Shown here: in pieces, positions 1 to 6,526 of the stretch
Position numbering within the stretch: the stretch's first letter is position 1
Layout: each line of letters opens with the position of its first letter
Source of the DNA: Deltaproteobacteria bacterium
GTDB taxonomy: Bacteria; Desulfobacterota; Desulfobacteria; Desulfobacterales; UBA11574
Reading direction: 5' to 3'
Assembly: GCA_019313025.1 (NCBI GenBank)
Contig: JAFDCA010000522.1
Span: 1-7,045 of the forward strand
DNA: 7,045 bases
Notes under the pieces: model-generated
The model's input: only the letters and a program-made list of their open reading frames with translations
Told to the model about the DNA's origin: nothing
The model's database searches: none
Program-made: the position numbers and the translations under genes

Positions 1-161
1 AAAGAAGAGATGAGTTCTACGCCGAGTTTACCAGGTTCGCTGTCGAAGCCAAGGGCGTGAAGATAAAACGGCGCCTCAGTTATCGGTCCTTTATGGCCAA
101 GAGAGTACAACTCGACACACCGCTGCTCTATGTCGTAAGTTTCAGGTAAAAAAGGGTTCAT
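1..161 (-). CDS. Unrecognised protein, N-terminal 53 residues only (cut by window edge)
   Basis: An open frame starts with ATG at 161-159 and runs off the left end of the window without a stop. The first residues read MNPFLPETYDIEQRCVELYS, and further on there is a motif-like stretch FYLHALGFDSEPGKLGVEL. The start is well supported: it overlaps the stop of the upstream ATP-grasp gene as ATGA, and a strong GGAGG lies 6 nt upstream inside the last codons of that gene. Such an overlap normally means translational coupling, so this is the fourth member of the gltA - metallopeptidase - ligase operon. I do not recognise the family from 53 residues. No signal peptide or membrane segment is visible in the portion present. 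Confidence 0.8.
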   Translation of the reverse strand, partial: MNPFLPETYDIEQRCVELYSLGHKGPITEAPFYLHALGFDSEPGKLGVELISS

Positions 162-1585
162 TCCCTACCTCCATCAAAGGGGAGCACTCTGCAGCGGCCC
201 TGTAATTCATTTACAAAAGTCGCAGCATAAGACTCGAGTTGTTTTAAGTGGCTATCAAGAACGCTTTCGCGCGTTTGCAACATGGCAAAACGGGCTTCAT
301 GACAAATTTTAGTCGCTATTTCAGGAAGATTGCCCAGAATACACCACTCATCGGGACGTTTGATGTCACGGCAGGTCGTTCCGTTTCGAACCCGCTCGAC
401 GGCATTGTTCACAAGGGTGTAAATGCCCGCTTTTATTTTGTGCTTGATAAAGCAAGGTTTATCTTCCAAGCTGTGCACAATTAAGTGAGCACCGTTATAA
501 GGCCTCCGGAACATCTTTTTGGACTGTTCTAAAAAATCTTGTGTAAATTCTTCAATAAGACCCAGAAACTGCATCACGTGAAGCGCCACCAAGGGAACTT
601 CACCCCTGTCCACTTGTAGCAATGATAAAAGCATGGTCGATCCCTGGAACCTCGGGTTGATCTCTAAAGCCAACACCTCGTCGCCGTGAAGAAGGAAATC
701 CATACCAAAAAGACCCAAAAAACCTTTGGCGCCCATGAAAATGCCGATTTTTTCCATAATTGTACAGATTTCTTCCCTTATGGATTTCGGGACTCTGTCG
801 GCAGCTGAGAAATCATTTCCGCAGTAAACTTCAGCCCGGTTTGTGCATCCATAGGCACCTACAATTTGAACTGACGGACAGGCAGCGATTGATCTCAATC
901 CTTCACGGGTTTTCAGGATGACACAATGCCCGTTGAGAGAAGGCACCGGCAAATATTTGGACAGTTTCACGCGTTGATCGGGTTCAAGTATATCCTTGAC
1001 CCTCTCGAATTCTGTCTCATTGTTCACAAAATAAGTGTTCTCCCCGGAAGACCCCACCGGGGGCTGTATGACAAAAGGGCCATCCAAAATATCACTTGCC
1101 TTGGAAAAGGTTGTTTCATCCAAGGTACTTACAAAAGTCTTCGGGGTCTTTACGCCCAACATGGAAAACATTTCCAATTGCCGCAACTTGTCGTCAAAAA
1201 GATCCTTAAGCATCAAAGGGGGCGCCAACACACGAAAACGTCTGTCATTTTCTAACACCCTAAGGGAACGGTAGCAAACCGTATGGATAGGTTCCTTCAC
1301 ACCACTGATGTATGTTTCAATCCGTTTCCGTGTCGGCGCTTCCCACAGCATTTCAAGATCCTGATTCCCCCAGTTTTCCCGCCTCCCGAAATCTTTCTCC
1401 ACAGAAAATAGGGTCTTTTCTGTCCAAAGCCTTTCATATTCCTCACCAAAGTCACAAAAGAATCCCGCATCTAAAGAAATAAAATCAAGCACCGCATACG
1501 CATCGATACCTCTCTGTCCCACCCAGGCCCAGGTTCCCCGGTATTTGCTCAGTGCATCCTTAAGTTGGAACAGATTCTTTATCAT
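158..1585 (-). CDS. ATP-grasp carboxylate-amine ligase family protein
   Basis: A 475-residue cytosolic protein with an ATP-grasp fold. Residues 1-120 form a family-specific N-terminal (pre-ATP-grasp) part. The segment DDKLRQLEMFSMLGVKTPKT (131-150) is the usual entry to the ATP-grasp subdomain, with K133 as a likely nucleotide contact. PFVIQPPVGSSGENT (170-184) is the glycine-rich loop, and D296 with E308/N310 in LALEINPRFQGS form the Mg-ATP site. About 140 residues follow as a C-terminal extension. Family members activate a carboxylate as an acyl phosphate and join it to an amine or another nucleophile; the substrates here cannot be read from the sequence. Q174 sits where most relatives have a lysine. 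The gene starts 3 nt after the metallopeptidase stop with only a weak TTGGA-like ribosome site, and its stop overlaps the next start. The overall class is secure; whether it ligates peptides, amino acids or another acid is open. Confidence 0.88.
   Translation of the reverse strand: MIKNLFQLKDALSKYRGTWAWVGQRGIDAYAVLDFISLDAGFFCDFGEEYERLWTEKTLFSVEKDFGRRENWGNQDLEMLWEAPTRKRIETYISGVKEPIHTVCYRSLRVLENDRRFRVLAPPLMLKDLFDDKLRQLEMFSMLGVKTPKTFVSTLDETTFSKASDILDGPFVIQPPVGSSGENTYFVNNETEFERVKDILEPDQRVKLSKYLPVPSLNGHCVILKTREGLRSIAACPSVQIVGAYGCTNRAEVYCGNDFSAADRVPKSIREEICTIMEKIGIFMGAKGFLGLFGMDFLLHGDEVLALEINPRFQGSTMLLSLLQVDRGEVPLVALHVMQFLGLIEEFTQDFLEQSKKMFRRPYNGAHLIVHSLEDKPCFIKHKIKAGIYTLVNNAVERVRNGTTCRDIKRPDEWCILGNLPEIATKICHEARFAMLQTRESVLDSHLKQLESYAATFVNELQGRCRVLPFDGGRE
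162..172 (-). promoter_or_regulatory. Ribosome binding site of the truncated left-edge gene
   Basis: GGAGG (172-168) is followed by a 6-nt spacer and ATG at 161. It lies within the last codons of the ATP-grasp gene. It is the best Shine-Dalgarno site among the downstream genes of this operon and is the main evidence that the left-edge frame is a real gene. Confidence 0.75.
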
Positions 1586-1588
1586 GGT

Positions 1589-2665
1589 TCATTCCAACGG
1601 AAAAATCCAATGAGAGGGGTTCACAATACCGTTTTGCACAAACCTGTCTATTAATTGAGCGTGTCTGAAAGCAATTTTTCCACCCATTAGCATTTCAAGA
1701 TTGCCCTTGGCATTAAGGTACGATCGAACCCTATTGGGTCCGGTAAAATAGTGAAATTCCTTTGTAAGCGCACCTGAGCGTGACGTATCGGCCAACCCCC
1801 GTTTCACCCGTGCCACAATCGTATACGCCGTCTCTTCATCGAAATACTCCAAGAGTTCTTCAAAAACTTCTGCAAATCCGGCTGTGAGCGATAAGTATAC
1901 CGCCAAACAACGCCCAGCGTAAATTTTCTCCTGGAAGGGATAAAGGTTATCAGACATGTGTTCAAAGTGAACCGCAAGTCCTTCTTCGGCTTCTCGATAG
2001 CCTGCCGTACCCATGGAAAAAATACCCCATGGAAAGCAGGAACCATTGTGAATGCGAACAGCGTGAACATCTATCTCATGTACCAAAAGGCGTTTTACTT
2101 CCTGGGGTGCAAACAGAGCATTTCGATTAAGATGAATGACGCGGGAAACACTGTCTACCGATATTTTTGTGGCCATTGAAGACGCCAGCGTAATATCCAT
2201 GGAAATACCAAGTTTTTCTAAGCGGGTCTCAAGTAACTTTGCAAAGTCCTTTGCTAAAACGCTTCGTTCAGGAGGCATGACATCTGAAAGTCTTTCTAAA
2301 ACCTGGCGAGCCAGCTGGGCGTCTTTGGTGGTTGGGGCGCCGAAGATTTCAATGGCAAATCGTGTGAATCTTTCGCTGCCGACCGCAGCAAACATCTTTT
2401 TAGTTCTGTCCAGCTCGAACTGTTTTTCACGGTATAGTTCGATGACTTCATCCGGGGCATCCATGGATTCAAGAGGCAAAATCGGCTTAAAATCACTCCA
2501 ATCTGAAGGACCGTTTTTATATTTGAACACAGGAGATTTTTTAATGCTAAAAAAACGAGGGTTCAGAAAAGCTTTTTGTTCCTCGAGCAAGTTGACCGGC
2601 TTCACCACCTGGCCCAGGGTGAGTTGCTGCAGTAAACTTCTAAGCTTCCTATCCGTAGCGTTCAT
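1589..2665 (-). CDS. DUF1704 / MATCAP-like zinc metallopeptidase (QEGLA-motif family)
   Basis: A 358-residue soluble protein. The zincin signature HExxxH appears as HEIDVH with H196, E197 and H201. The family's second motif (QEGLA) appears as EEGLAVHFEH, where E228 is the likely third zinc ligand. A downstream block, RVKRGLADTSRSGALTKEFHY (286-306), is also typical of the family. Bacterial members are often labelled 'flavohemoglobin expression-modulating QEGLA motif protein'; eukaryotic relatives (MATCAP) are carboxypeptidases that remove the C-terminal tyrosine of alpha-tubulin. A carboxypeptidase role here is therefore inferred from family; the substrate is unknown. The gene begins 10 nt after the gltA stop with no clear Shine-Dalgarno sequence, so ribosomes probably reinitiate from gltA. 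It is followed after 3 nt by the ATP-grasp ligase, suggesting the two enzymes act on the same molecule. Confidence 0.87.
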   Translation of the reverse strand: MNATDRKLRSLLQQLTLGQVVKPVNLLEEQKAFLNPRFFSIKKSPVFKYKNGPSDWSDFKPILPLESMDAPDEVIELYREKQFELDRTKKMFAAVGSERFTRFAIEIFGAPTTKDAQLARQVLERLSDVMPPERSVLAKDFAKLLETRLEKLGISMDITLASSMATKISVDSVSRVIHLNRNALFAPQEVKRLLVHEIDVHAVRIHNGSCFPWGIFSMGTAGYREAEEGLAVHFEHMSDNLYPFQEKIYAGRCLAVYLSLTAGFAEVFEELLEYFDEETAYTIVARVKRGLADTSRSGALTKEFHYFTGPNRVRSYLNAKGNLEMLMGGKIAFRHAQLIDRFVQNGIVNPSHWIFPLE

Positions 2666-2675
2666 CGATATCGGA

Positions 2676-3956
2676 CTATCGTTGGTCGATGGGAATATAG
2701 TCGGTTATGGTCGGTCCGGTGTAAATCTGACGAGGTCGTCCAAGTTTCCATTTGGGATCATCTAGACTCTCTTTCCATTGAGCAATCCAGCCCGGTAACC
2801 GACCGATGGCAAACATGACCGTAAACATGTTGGTGGGAATGCCCATGGCTCGAAGGACGATGCCGCTGTAAAAATCGATATTTGGATACAGATTGTATTC
2901 AATGAAATAATCATCTCTTAATGCCGCTTCTTCAAGTTCCTTGGCAATATCGAGCAACGGATCTTTAATGTTGAGTTTGGCAAGAACCTTATCACACATC
3001 TTCTTCATGATTTTGGCCCGCGGATCATATGCCTTATATACGCGATGTCCAAAACCCATGAGGCGAAAGGGATCTTTTTTATCTTTGGCGCGTTTAATGG
3101 CCTTGCGATAGTTCCCGCCGTCTTGTTGAATATCGGTAAGCATTTCGATGACCGCTTGATTGGCTCCTCCGTGCAACGGGCCCCAGAGAGCTGCGATACC
3201 GGCGGAAATCGCCGCATACAGATTGACTCTCCCGCTCCCCACCAGCCTTACCGCTGAAGTCGAACAGTTCTGCTCATGGTCAGCGTGAAGAATCCAGAAA
3301 ACATCCAGTGCCCTTACCAGGTCTTCATCAATGTGATACGGCTTAACCGGTGTATCAAACATCATGTTCAGAAAATTTGCACAGTATTTTAGATCAGGTC
3401 GCGGATAAACAACTTTGTGACCTCTCGATATCTTATAAGACATGGCGGCCATGGTCCGAACTTTGGATAATAAGCGGGTAACGGTAATATTGATCTCCTC
3501 TTCAATGTCCTCAAGCTCGGGATAAAAGCTTCTTAAAGCATTCACCATGGATGAGAGTATTCCCATGGGATGAGAAGCTCTGGGAAAGTTCTGATAAAAA
3601 ATCTGCATGTCCTCATGCACAAGTGATTGGTCGTTAAATAAAACCGACATGTTTTTGAGCTCCGCTTTGGTGGGCAGCCGACCGTTTATTAACAAATAGA
3701 CGGTTTCGAGAAAACTCGAATGTTCAGCCAGCTGTTCCACCGGGATTCCGCGATACCGTAGAATTCCTTTTTCACCATCCATGAACGTAATGGAACTGGT
3801 GCAGCTGCCGGTGTTGGCATAGCCAGGATCCAAGGTAATGAGGCCCGTCATTTGGCGAAGGTTTGAAATATCGATGGCCCTTTCGCCCTCACTGCCGGTA
3901 ACAATTGGAAGTTCATATGTTTTGTCGACGAATATAAGTTTAACCTTATCTTCCAT
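2676..3956 (-). CDS. gltA: Citrate synthase, type II (si-type, GltA-like)
   Basis: A 426-residue citrate synthase condensing acetyl-CoA with oxaloacetate in the cytosolic TCA cycle. The catalytic triad is intact: H262 in LWGPLHGGAN, H304 in MGFGHRVYKAYDPRA and D361 in YPNIDFYSGI, equivalent to H264/H305/D362 of E. coli GltA. The HADHEQNCSTS block (224-234) is also present. The length and an N-terminal small beta domain fit the hexameric type II enzymes of proteobacteria, many of which are inhibited by NADH. I chose ATG 3956 because MEDKVKLIFVDK aligns with the usual family N-terminus and AGAGGTG lies 4 nt upstream. In-frame starts at 3974 (ATG) and 4013 (TTG, behind AGGAGG) would add 6 or 19 unusual residues. 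The gene heads an operon with the metallopeptidase 10 nt downstream. In some Desulfobacterota-type anaerobes this enzyme is known to run in reverse (citrate cleavage); nothing in the sequence decides direction. Confidence 0.97.
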   Translation of the reverse strand: MEDKVKLIFVDKTYELPIVTGSEGERAIDISNLRQMTGLITLDPGYANTGSCTSSITFMDGEKGILRYRGIPVEQLAEHSSFLETVYLLINGRLPTKAELKNMSVLFNDQSLVHEDMQIFYQNFPRASHPMGILSSMVNALRSFYPELEDIEEEINITVTRLLSKVRTMAAMSYKISRGHKVVYPRPDLKYCANFLNMMFDTPVKPYHIDEDLVRALDVFWILHADHEQNCSTSAVRLVGSGRVNLYAAISAGIAALWGPLHGGANQAVIEMLTDIQQDGGNYRKAIKRAKDKKDPFRLMGFGHRVYKAYDPRAKIMKKMCDKVLAKLNIKDPLLDIAKELEEAALRDDYFIEYNLYPNIDFYSGIVLRAMGIPTNMFTVMFAIGRLPGWIAQWKESLDDPKWKLGRPRQIYTGPTITDYIPIDQR

Positions 3957-4211: not shown

Positions 4212-4252
4212 AAAACTATCGTTTACACAGACACACGGGGTATGATAGTTTT
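4212..4252. repeat. 9-bp perfect inverted repeat with 23-bp spacer in the divergent region
   Basis: AAAACTATC (4212-4220) is the exact reverse complement of GATAGTTTT (4244-4252). The arm centres lie 32 bp apart, about three helical turns, so both half-sites would face the same side of the helix. The spacer contains TTTACA and TATGAT, promoter-like hexamers for the plus-strand gene though only 13 bp apart. An operator for the 263-residue gene is plausible; no binding protein is known. Confidence 0.45.
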
Positions 4253-4300
4253 GATATTTATTATCTGGTATCGTGCATCCTTTATCCCGCACTTTGCAAA

Positions 4301-4306
4301 AGGAGG
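4301..4306 (+). promoter_or_regulatory. Ribosome binding site fixing the start of the 263-residue protein
   Basis: AGGAGG is followed by CATT and ATG at 4311. An in-frame upstream ATG at 4242 lacks such a site and would add 23 hydrophobic residues not matching the rest of the protein, so 4311 is preferred. Confidence 0.75.
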
Positions 4307-4310
4307 CATT

Positions 4311-5102
4311 ATGTCTTTTAAAGAAAACCTTTTAAAAAAAATTAAAATCGACAATATGGGGCGACAGATCATTGCTTCCATCGGTCCCTTAGAAAGCGGC
4401 CGCAAGATAGATAAAAAAATTATGCGGGAGCTTCTTGAAATGGCGGACTACACTTACAAAAGAAAGCGAGATCTCGATCTTTATATCGAAAATATCGACG
4501 CCGAAAAAACTCGGATTCTGGTGCTCGACAATGATCTGGCCATTTACAATACGTCTGTCTATGACGTTGCCATGCGTAAAAGTCCCACTGTCAAAGAAAT
4601 GATGAATCCTTTCAATGTGGTTAAAATCCTAAAAGATACGGATGTGGTCATAAGCAAAAAGGAAGACTCCGTGAAAACCATTCAACAGGAATGCGTCGCC
4701 AAGCTGAACCTATCCTTTAATGCACTCGATCTCGATGAAATAATCAAAGACGGCTTGGCCTCTTTTGAAAATGGATACTCGGACGGCGTCACTGAATGCC
4801 TTGATCTGTTTGCAGAGATTTTACATTACACAAACGCACCCAAAGTCTTTAGAATTACCCACCACAAGATAATCGGAGCATGGGATAAAAATGAGAATGG
4901 GGAAGACATGTTCGGCCCCATAGTCCTTTACAGTATGATACACAACACTTTAAAATTGATCGATCAAAAGATCGGCAGTTTTGATAAAGAAAATATTGAA
5001 TTTTTTCAGAATGTTGTATCAGGAAAGGAACCGGCCTCGGCAGAAGGATCGAATGTTTTTCACTATCTTAAAACGGCCGCATTAAAATTGACGTCTGTTT
5101 GA
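4311..5102 (+). CDS. Conserved-looking hypothetical soluble protein (263 aa)
   Basis: I do not recognise this as a named family. The protein is charged, lysine- and acid-rich, predicted soluble, with no signal peptide, membrane span, Cys cluster or nucleotide-binding motif. The N-terminal third holds IIASIGPLESGRKIDKKIMR (16-35) and a lysine/arginine/aspartate-rich stretch; the middle has VLDNDLAIYNTSVYDVAMRK. The last third carries RITHHKIIGAWD and FGPIVLYSMIHNTLKLIDQ and looks helical. A clear AGGAGG sets the start at 4311. It is transcribed divergently from gltA and is followed 86 nt later by the CheD-HDOD gene on the same strand, so a shared transcript is possible. Codon use is in line with its neighbours, which supports a genuine gene. 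The paired histidines (HH) in the C-terminal part are the only eye-catching polar motif; no function is proposed. Confidence 0.85.
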   Translation: MSFKENLLKKIKIDNMGRQIIASIGPLESGRKIDKKIMRELLEMADYTYKRKRDLDLYIENIDAEKTRILVLDNDLAIYNTSVYDVAMRKSPTVKEMMNPFNVVKILKDTDVVISKKEDSVKTIQQECVAKLNLSFNALDLDEIIKDGLASFENGYSDGVTECLDLFAEILHYTNAPKVFRITHHKIIGAWDKNENGEDMFGPIVLYSMIHNTLKLIDQKIGSFDKENIEFFQNVVSGKEPASAEGSNVFHYLKTAALKLTSV

Positions 5103-5188: not shown

Positions 5189-6526
5189 ATGAAAAAACAA
5201 ATTGTGACTTCAGGCACATCGGTTATTAGTGAGAAAAAACAAGAATCCCTCGAAGCATATCTGGGAAGCTGCGTAGGGGTTACTCTGGTTGATCGCCAGG
5301 CCGATGTGGGAGGATTGCTCCACCTTCTTTTGGCCGAGCCCACAGGATCGGATGCGCATTTTATTCCTGAAAATTATGCAACCACCGGCTTGCCGCATTT
5401 TTTAAATAAATTGATGGATGCGGGGGCTTCGAAAGAAAATTTGGAAGCATGTGTGGCCGGAGGCGCCCTTATAGGACCTGTATCCGATATGGATCTATCC
5501 CTGGATATCGGGGGACGAACCGCTGAAAGGGTTCAAGTTTATCTCGAAGATCAAGGGATTCCGATCATTGAAACCGAAACCGGCGGATATTCCGGACGCA
5601 AAATGAGCCTTGATCTTTATCAATGGAACACGACCATTGAACCGACATGGCAAATTGAACGGCCGTCCATGAGTCCTTTTCAAACCGATGTTGTTTTCAA
5701 TATTGATGAGGCGATTCAAAGGGTGAAACCAATACCCCAGGTGGCACTTAAAGTTATCCGTATGATACACAGAGATGACTATACGATGAAAGAAGTAGGG
5801 AATGAGATCCGCCGGGACCAGGTGATCAGCGGAAGGGTTTTAAATCTTTGCAACTCTGCTATCATGGGTCTGAAAACAGTCGTTGATTCCATAGATCGGG
5901 CACTGGTATTGGTGGGAGAAAAACGACTTTTAAAACTCGTTGTTACGGCATCGGTCAAATCACTCTTCCCGCAATCATTCCAAGGCTACTCTCTGTGCAA
6001 AGGGGGAATCTTCCATCATGCGATCGGAACCGCCCTGATTGCTCAAGAGCTTGCCGCTTTTACTGAAAAGGTGGCACCCGATATTGCCTATACAGCCGGT
6101 CTTTTGCATGATATCGGAAAAATTCCCCTGGATCAGGTGATGACGGCAAACGCCCCTTTCTTCTATAGATCTACCCAGGAAAAAGGCCATGACTTGTGCG
6201 AAATGGAAAGATTGAAGTTCGGTGTAGATCACACTGAAGCCGGAATGCGGCTGGGTAAGCTATGGACCCTGCCAAACAATCTGATTAATGTGATTGCCAA
6301 TCACCATCAGCCCGAAGCTTCAACGGAGGATGAAGAACTTGTTACAATGGTGTATATAGCCGATCTGTTGATGTCAAAATTTCAAGCACACCATGAATTA
6401 GAGCAAATCGATACGGAAAAATTATCGGACAGGCTGAATCGATTGGGGCTAAGTTCTGATCATTTTCCGATGTTGATCGATCGAATTCCAAGAAACATTT
6501 TTCAATCTGCATCCATGCCGGTTTGA
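5189..6526 (+). CDS. CheD-HDOD fusion protein
   Basis: A 445-residue cytosolic fusion. Residues 1-148 are a CheD-type glutamine deamidase domain: LGSCVGV with C28, GGLLHLLL with H45 (17 residues later, as in CheD), ACVAGGALIG, and GIPIIETETGGYSGRKMSLDL. CheD converts glutamines of chemoreceptors to glutamate and binds CheC. Residues about 172-375 are an HDOD domain beginning DEAIQRVKPIPQVALKVIRM, with HH276-277, LLHDIGK (H307, D308), DHTEAG (H348), NHH (H372-H373) and AD392. HDOD proteins are signalling-output modules, often alongside chemotaxis or second-messenger components; most are not proven enzymes. The position matching the catalytic Thr of Thermotoga CheD is E22. The start at 5189 has GGAGAG close by and GAGGA 10 nt upstream. 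No cheC, receptor or kinase gene lies in the window. Domain assignments are firm; the cellular target is unknown. Confidence 0.9.
   Translation: MKKQIVTSGTSVISEKKQESLEAYLGSCVGVTLVDRQADVGGLLHLLLAEPTGSDAHFIPENYATTGLPHFLNKLMDAGASKENLEACVAGGALIGPVSDMDLSLDIGGRTAERVQVYLEDQGIPIIETETGGYSGRKMSLDLYQWNTTIEPTWQIERPSMSPFQTDVVFNIDEAIQRVKPIPQVALKVIRMIHRDDYTMKEVGNEIRRDQVISGRVLNLCNSAIMGLKTVVDSIDRALVLVGEKRLLKLVVTASVKSLFPQSFQGYSLCKGGIFHHAIGTALIAQELAAFTEKVAPDIAYTAGLLHDIGKIPLDQVMTANAPFFYRSTQEKGHDLCEMERLKFGVDHTEAGMRLGKLWTLPNNLINVIANHHQPEASTEDEELVTMVYIADLLMSKFQAHHELEQIDTEKLSDRLNRLGLSSDHFPMLIDRIPRNIFQSASMPV

Follow-up and report, generated by a model that had tools for sequence, protein, structure and literature searches.

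Two ATP-grasp enzymes and a MATCAP-family peptidase form a gene block conserved across bacterial phyla

MATCAP enzymes are known as tubulin trimmers. Here we describe a bacterial gene block in which a MATCAP-family zinc peptidase is coupled to two ATP-grasp enzymes, GRASP1 and GRASP2, a partnership that recurs in four phyla. We analysed the block in a 7,045-nt stretch of DNA from a Desulfobacterota genome (Deltaproteobacteria bacterium, GenBank assembly GCA_019313025.1, contig JAFDCA010000522.1; hereafter the window), where it stands behind gltA, the citrate synthase gene. Our best explanation, to which we give a little short of an even chance, is that a small peptide or amino-acid conjugate is built by the two ligases and trimmed by the carboxypeptidase. 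The three proteins make up a compact set, and their product can be sought directly.

Results

A second ATP-grasp enzyme in the block

A sequence-only reading of the window had described gltA, a DUF1704 metallopeptidase gene, an ATP-grasp gene and a fourth gene lying head to tail. We confirmed their order, their families and their spacing, with 10 nt between gltA and the peptidase gene (2666-2675) and 3 nt between the peptidase gene and GRASP1 (1586-1588), as read from the sequence, and a 4-nt ATGA overlap between GRASP1 and GRASP2 (158-161; Table 1). What that reading did not recognize is that the fourth gene encodes an ATP-grasp enzyme as well, and we regard this gene, GRASP2, as the missed key to the block. 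All four genes are under purifying selection, with dN/dS values between the window and its closest relative, locus L001, of 0.13 for gltA, 0.17 for the peptidase, 0.18 for GRASP1 and 0.13 for GRASP2 (53 codons).

GRASP2 is a divergent ATP-grasp family unseen by Pfam and NCBIfam. Its full-length form, 534 aa, was read in L001 (6645-8249), and none of the four members scanned (L001, L013, L023 and L026) gave a Pfam match at E 0.01. It has the ATP-grasp fold, and its closest folds (DcsG, ArgX, LysX, RimK and Ddl) are amide- or peptide-forming ATP-grasp ligases. Five residues, K176, K231, D482, E492 and N494, are kept in 17/17 rows; judged by their pattern, they probably lie at the ATP and metal site.

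GRASP1 belongs to a recognized family, exceeding the cut-off of PF02655 (ATP-grasp_3) with 41.7 bits against 23.2 (E 1.7e-10). It keeps D296, E308 and N310, presumably its metal-binding residues, in 18/18 rows. Weak sequence links tie it to dipeptide-type ligases (LdmS model, E 1.2e-5; PDB 8yi6, E 9.8e-6), with scores far under the NCBIfam cut-offs for LdmS (24 of 475 bits) and BesA (16 of 750 bits), and its fold links include PylC, PurT and PurK. At the level of sequence, as distinct from fold, the tubulin tyrosine ligase (TTL) family was absent from the Pfam and NCBIfam matches of both GRASP1 and GRASP2 at E 0.01.

The window peptidase is a MATCAP family member with conserved catalytic motifs, for which carboxypeptidase activity is predicted. 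It scores 158.8 bits against PF08014 (gathering cut-off 27, E 2.4e-46) and aligns with the KIAA0895-like structure PDB 7z5g (E 4e-25) such that HExxxH, EEGLA and RxKRGxxDTSxPG match up; the metal-site motifs also align to PDB 7z6s. H196, E197, H201, E227, E228 and G229 are invariant across 15 aligned peptidase rows, and the peptidase of the L012 block, outside that alignment, carries a QEGFA variant. Eukaryotic TMCP/MATCAP enzymes trim tubulin tails; in the family paper, whose title names deglutamylation, E281 and E316 of TMCP1 are required for activity (PMC10499314). Against TIGR02421, the QEGLA family, the window peptidase reaches 174.4 bits, under the NCBIfam cut-off of 338.65. EEGLA is present in 10/10 gltA-linked rows, window included, and QEGLA in 39/39 gammaproteobacterial rows; block peptidases carry the RxKRG motif, as MATCAP1 does, and the 39 gammaproteobacterial QEGLA-type rows lack it.

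We placed the peptidases in a quick tree of 93 rows, built without bootstrap and including ten sets of rows that are identical copies of one place. By the Shimodaira-Hasegawa-like approximate likelihood ratio test (SH-aLRT), block peptidases form one branch (93), six relatives from metagenomes join the gltA-linked peptidases (100), and the gammaproteobacterial types stand apart (98). In one Omnitrophota genome (G345; L015/L087), the peptidase gene contains an in-frame TAG, reflecting decay or sequencing error, and both ligase genes are open; this peptidase entered the analyses in pieces.

Conservation and co-occurrence of the three proteins

Scanning species-representative genomes with a GRASP1 profile returned 58 loci. 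GRASP1 and GRASP2 are both present in 25 of these, in five phyla (L001-L024 and L026); they are neighbours in 24/24 of L001-L024, 775 nt apart in L026, and adjacent too in three more Omnitrophota-phylum genomes (G533, G493 and G466). The ATP-grasp genes of the other 33 loci (L025 and L027-L058) are remote relatives; the fetched stretches gave no match to GRASP2 or the peptidase, and these loci were excluded from the counts. Among these remote relatives, L028 adjoins a PBP1A-like gene, a homologue of which (72% identical) is the next gene in L027, and L033 sits between threonine-synthase-like and FtsW genes, contexts hinting at cell-wall-linked ligases.

The peptidase gene lies immediately upstream of the GRASP pair in 9/9 fetched Desulfobacterota loci and in 13 of the 17 other-phylum genomes with the pair that were searched for it (13/16 without the Nitrospinae genome G605), adjoining GRASP1 in each of the 13. 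With these counts and a single peptidase branch, the ligase/peptidase adjacency reported by the sequence-only reading came through a test for rarity or recent rearrangement. Taken as a whole, the interpretation in that reading is supported in part. Loci from the same place, judged by coordinates, were counted once (L015 with G345, L017 with G556 and L019 with G455), and L003 was counted with Desulfobacterota by similarity. G152, where gltA-peptidase lies at one contig end and GRASP2 at another, was left out of the adjacency counts, and L026 out of alignments, tree and distance correlations. The contigs of L011 and L020 end upstream, and their genomes fall outside the peptidase search; in the genome of L024 (G019), the peptidase adjoins the GRASP1 start on a second contig, L173. 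L026 itself comes from the Nitrospinae bin G605, where the GRASP2 frame is 622 aa and 34% identical to that of L001; it is flanked upstream by a methyltransferase-family gene and downstream by a gene for a HEAT-repeat/cNMP-binding protein.

GRASP2 is rare, occurring in 7/291 genomes of the class of G007, 3/16 of the phylum sample around L023 and 12/285 of the Omnitrophota phylum sample. PF08014 was found in 4/192 genomes of the class of G007, all four among the GRASP2 carriers. In the Omnitrophota sample, apparently the same draw for both counts, ten genomes carry the peptidase and nine carry both it and GRASP2 (hypergeometric P 7e-14, uncorrected for kinship). Pairwise distances of the three proteins also correlate, with r 0.98-0.99 over 18 loci, mostly reflecting the split between phyla, and r 0.76-0.90 within six Omnitrophota loci. 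In these draft genomes, ligase-peptidase coupling is strong and widely conserved, and it is not obligatory.

A separate pairing in Gammaproteobacteria

A second association of MATCAP and ATP-grasp genes appeared in the class of G597, which we take to be Gammaproteobacteria in GTDB. PF08014 was found in 38/274 genomes, and 38 loci were read from 37 genomes; G635, with broken MATCAP pieces, was left out. Twelve loci (L144-L155) make up one MATCAP branch (SH-aLRT 88). All 12 have an N-formylglutamate amidohydrolase domain, either fused or next door, and 11/12 have a neighbouring glutathione-synthetase-like ATP-grasp gene, with two in tandem in L145. We searched for this GshB-like partner with a profile from four ligases (L144, L145 and L147), whose nearest NCBIfam model is PRK12458, its cut-off being exceeded by two of the four. 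The other 26 loci are of the QEGLA type: in two of them a RimK-like gene lies within the stretch, and 24 show none of the searched ATP-grasp families. MATCAP branches therefore differ, one being tied to the GRASP pair, one to GshB-like ligases and a third standing without such a tie.

The 24 loci without such a neighbour fit a looser arrangement, in which GRASP1 and GRASP2 cooperate on something unrelated and the peptidase is a general carboxypeptidase carried along; so do four genomes that have the ligases and no detected peptidase, and one with the reverse. However, 9 of 10 peptidase-bearing genomes in the Omnitrophota sample carry GRASP2, the proteins diverge in correlated fashion, spacing is close in most loci and MATCAP is paired with ATP-grasp enzymes a second time, and we consider this arrangement unlikely. 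Because of adjacency, co-occurrence, in-step divergence and the gammaproteobacterial parallel, we read the three proteins as coupled.

The gltA link

The gltA product matches PF00285 (Citrate_synt; E 2.6e-135) and NF004126 (614 bits, cut-off 505). From the ATG at 3956 it has 426 aa, the same length as in five of nine relatives (L002, L003, L005, L006 and L007). It precedes the peptidase gene in 9/9 Desulfobacterota loci and is missing from L010-L024 (15 loci) and L167-L170, which belong to other phyla. A separate contig of the Omnitrophota genome G015 carries a gltA of 60% identity; in G012 and G018 no gltA was found at E 1e-10. Genomes of the nine gltA-linked loci have one close gltA each, and 8/9 also have at least one distant copy elsewhere (33-36% identity). 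Since gltA is attached only in Desulfobacterota, a gltA-specific role of the block is unlikely, and we view the link as a lineage-specific capture outside the core.

The tie to gltA had been offered by the sequence-only reading as a possible clue to the target, and it gains no support from this distribution or from the GltA C-terminus, which is not kept: Arg ends the protein in the window and in 7/8 readable loci, CTQ in L009, and L004 is masked. We rejected the GltA C-terminus as a target, given its variable end and the unlinked gltA outside Desulfobacterota, and do not take the gltA link as a sign of GltA modification. An apparent GltA-peptidase fusion in L004, with one open frame across both genes, is an artefact of a run of N in the scaffold.

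Weighing the possible functions

Could the block act on a protein? In reversible tailing, a cellular protein whose gene lies elsewhere would receive residues on its C-terminus or on a side chain from one or both ATP-grasp enzymes and lose them again to the MATCAP peptidase, much as happens in the tubulin tyrosination and RpsF glutamylation cycles. Tubulin-tail trimming by the eukaryotic relatives fits this scheme, as does the combination of EEGLA and RxKRG, found in MATCAP1 and missing from the 39 gammaproteobacterial QEGLA-type rows. Two enzymes with protein C-termini as substrates, RimK and LysW-bound ArgX, are among the fold neighbours of GRASP2, and Pseudomonas RimK/RimB is a ligase/protease system acting on RpsF (PMC11957791). 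But no target gene was recognized in the block in any phylum, GltA makes a poor candidate for the reasons given above, and two different ligases exceed the need of a single tailing step; we hold tailing to be possible, if rather improbable. The narrower proposal of a bacterial ligase/carboxypeptidase cycle on a protein C-terminus, run by a peptidase with MATCAP1 motifs and a new ATP-grasp family, strikes us as doubtful. If true, such a cycle would be a prokaryotic counterpart, and possibly a forerunner, of the tubulin tyrosination cycle. The simple cycle of one ligase and one peptidase put forward by the sequence-only reading does not describe the anatomy of the block, which has two different ligases and, in four genomes, no detected peptidase. 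Ligases kept without a detected peptidase would point to a biosynthetic pair helped by an accessory trimming enzyme more than to a strict cycle of addition and removal.

We favour the assembly and trimming of a small molecule. The GRASP2 fold neighbours make amide bonds with amino acids, GRASP1 has its weak links to dipeptide ligases, and both would form amide bonds; linked ATP-grasp ligases often form successive bonds in peptide-like metabolites (PMC4431377), and members of the peptidase family take off C-terminal residues. GRASP1 and GRASP2 would act in succession. Each would convert a carboxylate to an acyl phosphate and couple it with an amine, and the product of the two ATP-driven steps would be a short peptide or amino-acid conjugate. 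The peptidase would then take the C-terminal residue off this shared product, or recycle it. A small product is suggested by the CstA-family transporter gene that follows GRASP2 in 9/12 testable Omnitrophota loci, where CstA would suit its transport, and by the lack of a conserved short target or carrier frame around the block: when short open frames beyond the core genes were compared, the 25 best shared all lay over a 286-aa neighbour or tRNA genes. In Desulfobacterota, capture behind gltA may provide co-expression with the entry step of the tricarboxylic acid cycle, or precursor supply.

Another candidate is a pathway like that of LysW. There a ligase would attach an amino acid to a small carrier protein for modification, the peptidase would release it afterwards, and gltA would feed the glutamate branch. 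ArgX and LysX are among the best GRASP2 fold matches, and by established biochemistry gltA leads to 2-oxoglutarate. Yet the fetched flanks of the loci hold no short frame with two CxxC motifs ending in E and no WGE-tailed frame, and enzymes that would modify a carrier-bound intermediate were not recognized in the block; we think this pathway very improbable.

Several observations weigh against a small ligase product. The top Foldseek matches of GRASP1 are pyruvate and biotin carboxylases, and with carboxylases and purine enzymes among its closest folds, GRASP1 need not be a peptide ligase. The MATCAP substrates known so far are proteins. CstA, a loose clue, was not seen in Desulfobacterota loci. 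The peptidase was not detected in the draft genomes G010, G014, G466 and G605, each with both ligases, although the PF08014 search that included G605 returned no match in any genome or control. Lastly, in G486, the exception among the ten peptidase-bearing genomes of the Omnitrophota sample, the peptidase stands beside a radical-SAM gene; the 12 kb examined there contain neither ligase, and no GRASP2 was found in the genome.

Other neighbours and transcription

In 11/12 testable Omnitrophota loci, the peptidase or GRASP1 is preceded, immediately or with one gene in between, by a spore-photoproduct-lyase-like (SPL-like) radical S-adenosylmethionine (SAM) gene. A nitroreductase-family gene stands between radical SAM and peptidase in L019, L021 and L168, and L010 and L016 are without both peptidase and CstA. 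The radical SAM gene is present in 18/19 block-bearing genomes; it also occurs in 20/20 block-free genomes of the class of G007 and 8/20 block-free Omnitrophota-phylum genomes, so its mere presence is uninformative. We thus rejected it as a universal partner, and only the Omnitrophota linkage counts. Neither the peptidase nor GRASP1, GRASP2 or the SPL-like protein matched a PADLOC defence model (0 matches), and an anti-phage defence system was rejected on this basis.

In eight Omnitrophota loci (L010, L013, L016, L018, L019, L021, L168 and L170), the block sits within a tRNA island. These loci were picked for matching tRNA-derived short frames, and the scan covered those eight. On the upstream side, 8/8 have tRNA-Pro and tRNA-Leu, frequently joined by Arg(tct) and His; where there is room, tRNA-Arg(tcg) follows shortly after the block (7/7). 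It is likely that tRNA genes mark block borders in these loci.

Within the window, the block as a single transcript is a prediction from gene spacing and conservation. The one promoter described by the sequence-only reading was not confirmed: a consensus scan gave 10 promoter-like sites where shuffled sequences gave 7.4 +/- 2.3, and none was a strong candidate immediately upstream of gltA. Minus-strand sites fall within genes, the one at 4336-4308 being in the divergent gene. A single weak terminator-like hairpin on the minus strand is located within gltA, and no RNA elements or tRNAs were found in the window. The divergent 286-aa protein is tied to this gltA locus, being found at 64-85% identity beside gltA in 8/8 Desulfobacterota places with room (L001, L002, L003, L005, L007, L008, L009 and G152 (L172)). 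The 445-aa protein shows an unusual domain join and lies near the block only in L001 of 30 loci compared.

Table 1 Genes of the window.
Feature	Coordinates	Strand	Assignment
GRASP2 start (fourth gene, 53 codons; ATG at 161)	1..161, truncated at window base 1	-	second, divergent ATP-grasp enzyme
GRASP1, ATP-grasp enzyme, 475 aa	158..1585	-	PF02655
MATCAP/DUF1704 zinc peptidase, 358 aa	1589..2665	-	PF08014; HEIDVH (H196, E197, H201), EEGLA (E227, E228)
gltA, Si-type citrate synthase	2676..3956 (ATG 3956; open frame from TTG 4013)	-	NF004126, PF00285
286-aa open frame, divergent from gltA	4242-5102	+	no Pfam or NCBIfam match
445-aa protein, N-terminal CheD-like and C-terminal HDOD/HD domain	5189-6526	+	domain matches

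Comparison with known systems

In the open-licence literature searched, we found no description of the block or of the function of bacterial MATCAP relatives. A 2009 amidoligase survey reportedly may already discuss such pairings, and we claim no priority.

The closest likeness is to eukaryotic MATCAP/TMCP (KIAA0895L and KIAA0895), with which the peptidase shares PF08014 above cut-off, the HExxxH and EEG site and the RxKRGxxDTSxPG motif aligned to 7z5g. Here, by contrast, the enzyme is bacterial and stands beside two ATP-grasp genes, and the likeness is drawn from sequence. The TIGR02421 QEGLA proteins and gammaproteobacterial relatives belong to the same superfamily, and one of their branches is also found beside ATP-grasp ligases. 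They differ in that the window peptidase falls under the TIGR02421 cut-off and has EEGLA instead of QEGLA, in the RxKRG motif missing from the 39 gammaproteobacterial rows, and in partner ligases that are GshB-like and accompanied by an N-formylglutamate amidohydrolase domain or neighbour.

RimK/RimA/RimB, the system for glutamylation of ribosomal protein S6, likewise combines an ATP-grasp ligase with a protease, and RimK is a GRASP2 fold neighbour. RimB, however, is a retropepsin-like aspartic protease (PMC11957791), whereas the peptidase of the block is from a zinc family and its two ligases, too, come from other families. From the ArgX/LysX-LysW amino-group carrier pathway the block differs in that no carrier was seen in its fetched flanks. 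LdmS and BesA, ATP-grasp ligases of the dipeptide type, match GRASP1 weakly, yet GRASP1 stays far under their NCBIfam cut-offs. The block and the separate gammaproteobacterial pairing suggest that the MATCAP family may have an old role in the joining and trimming of peptide bonds.

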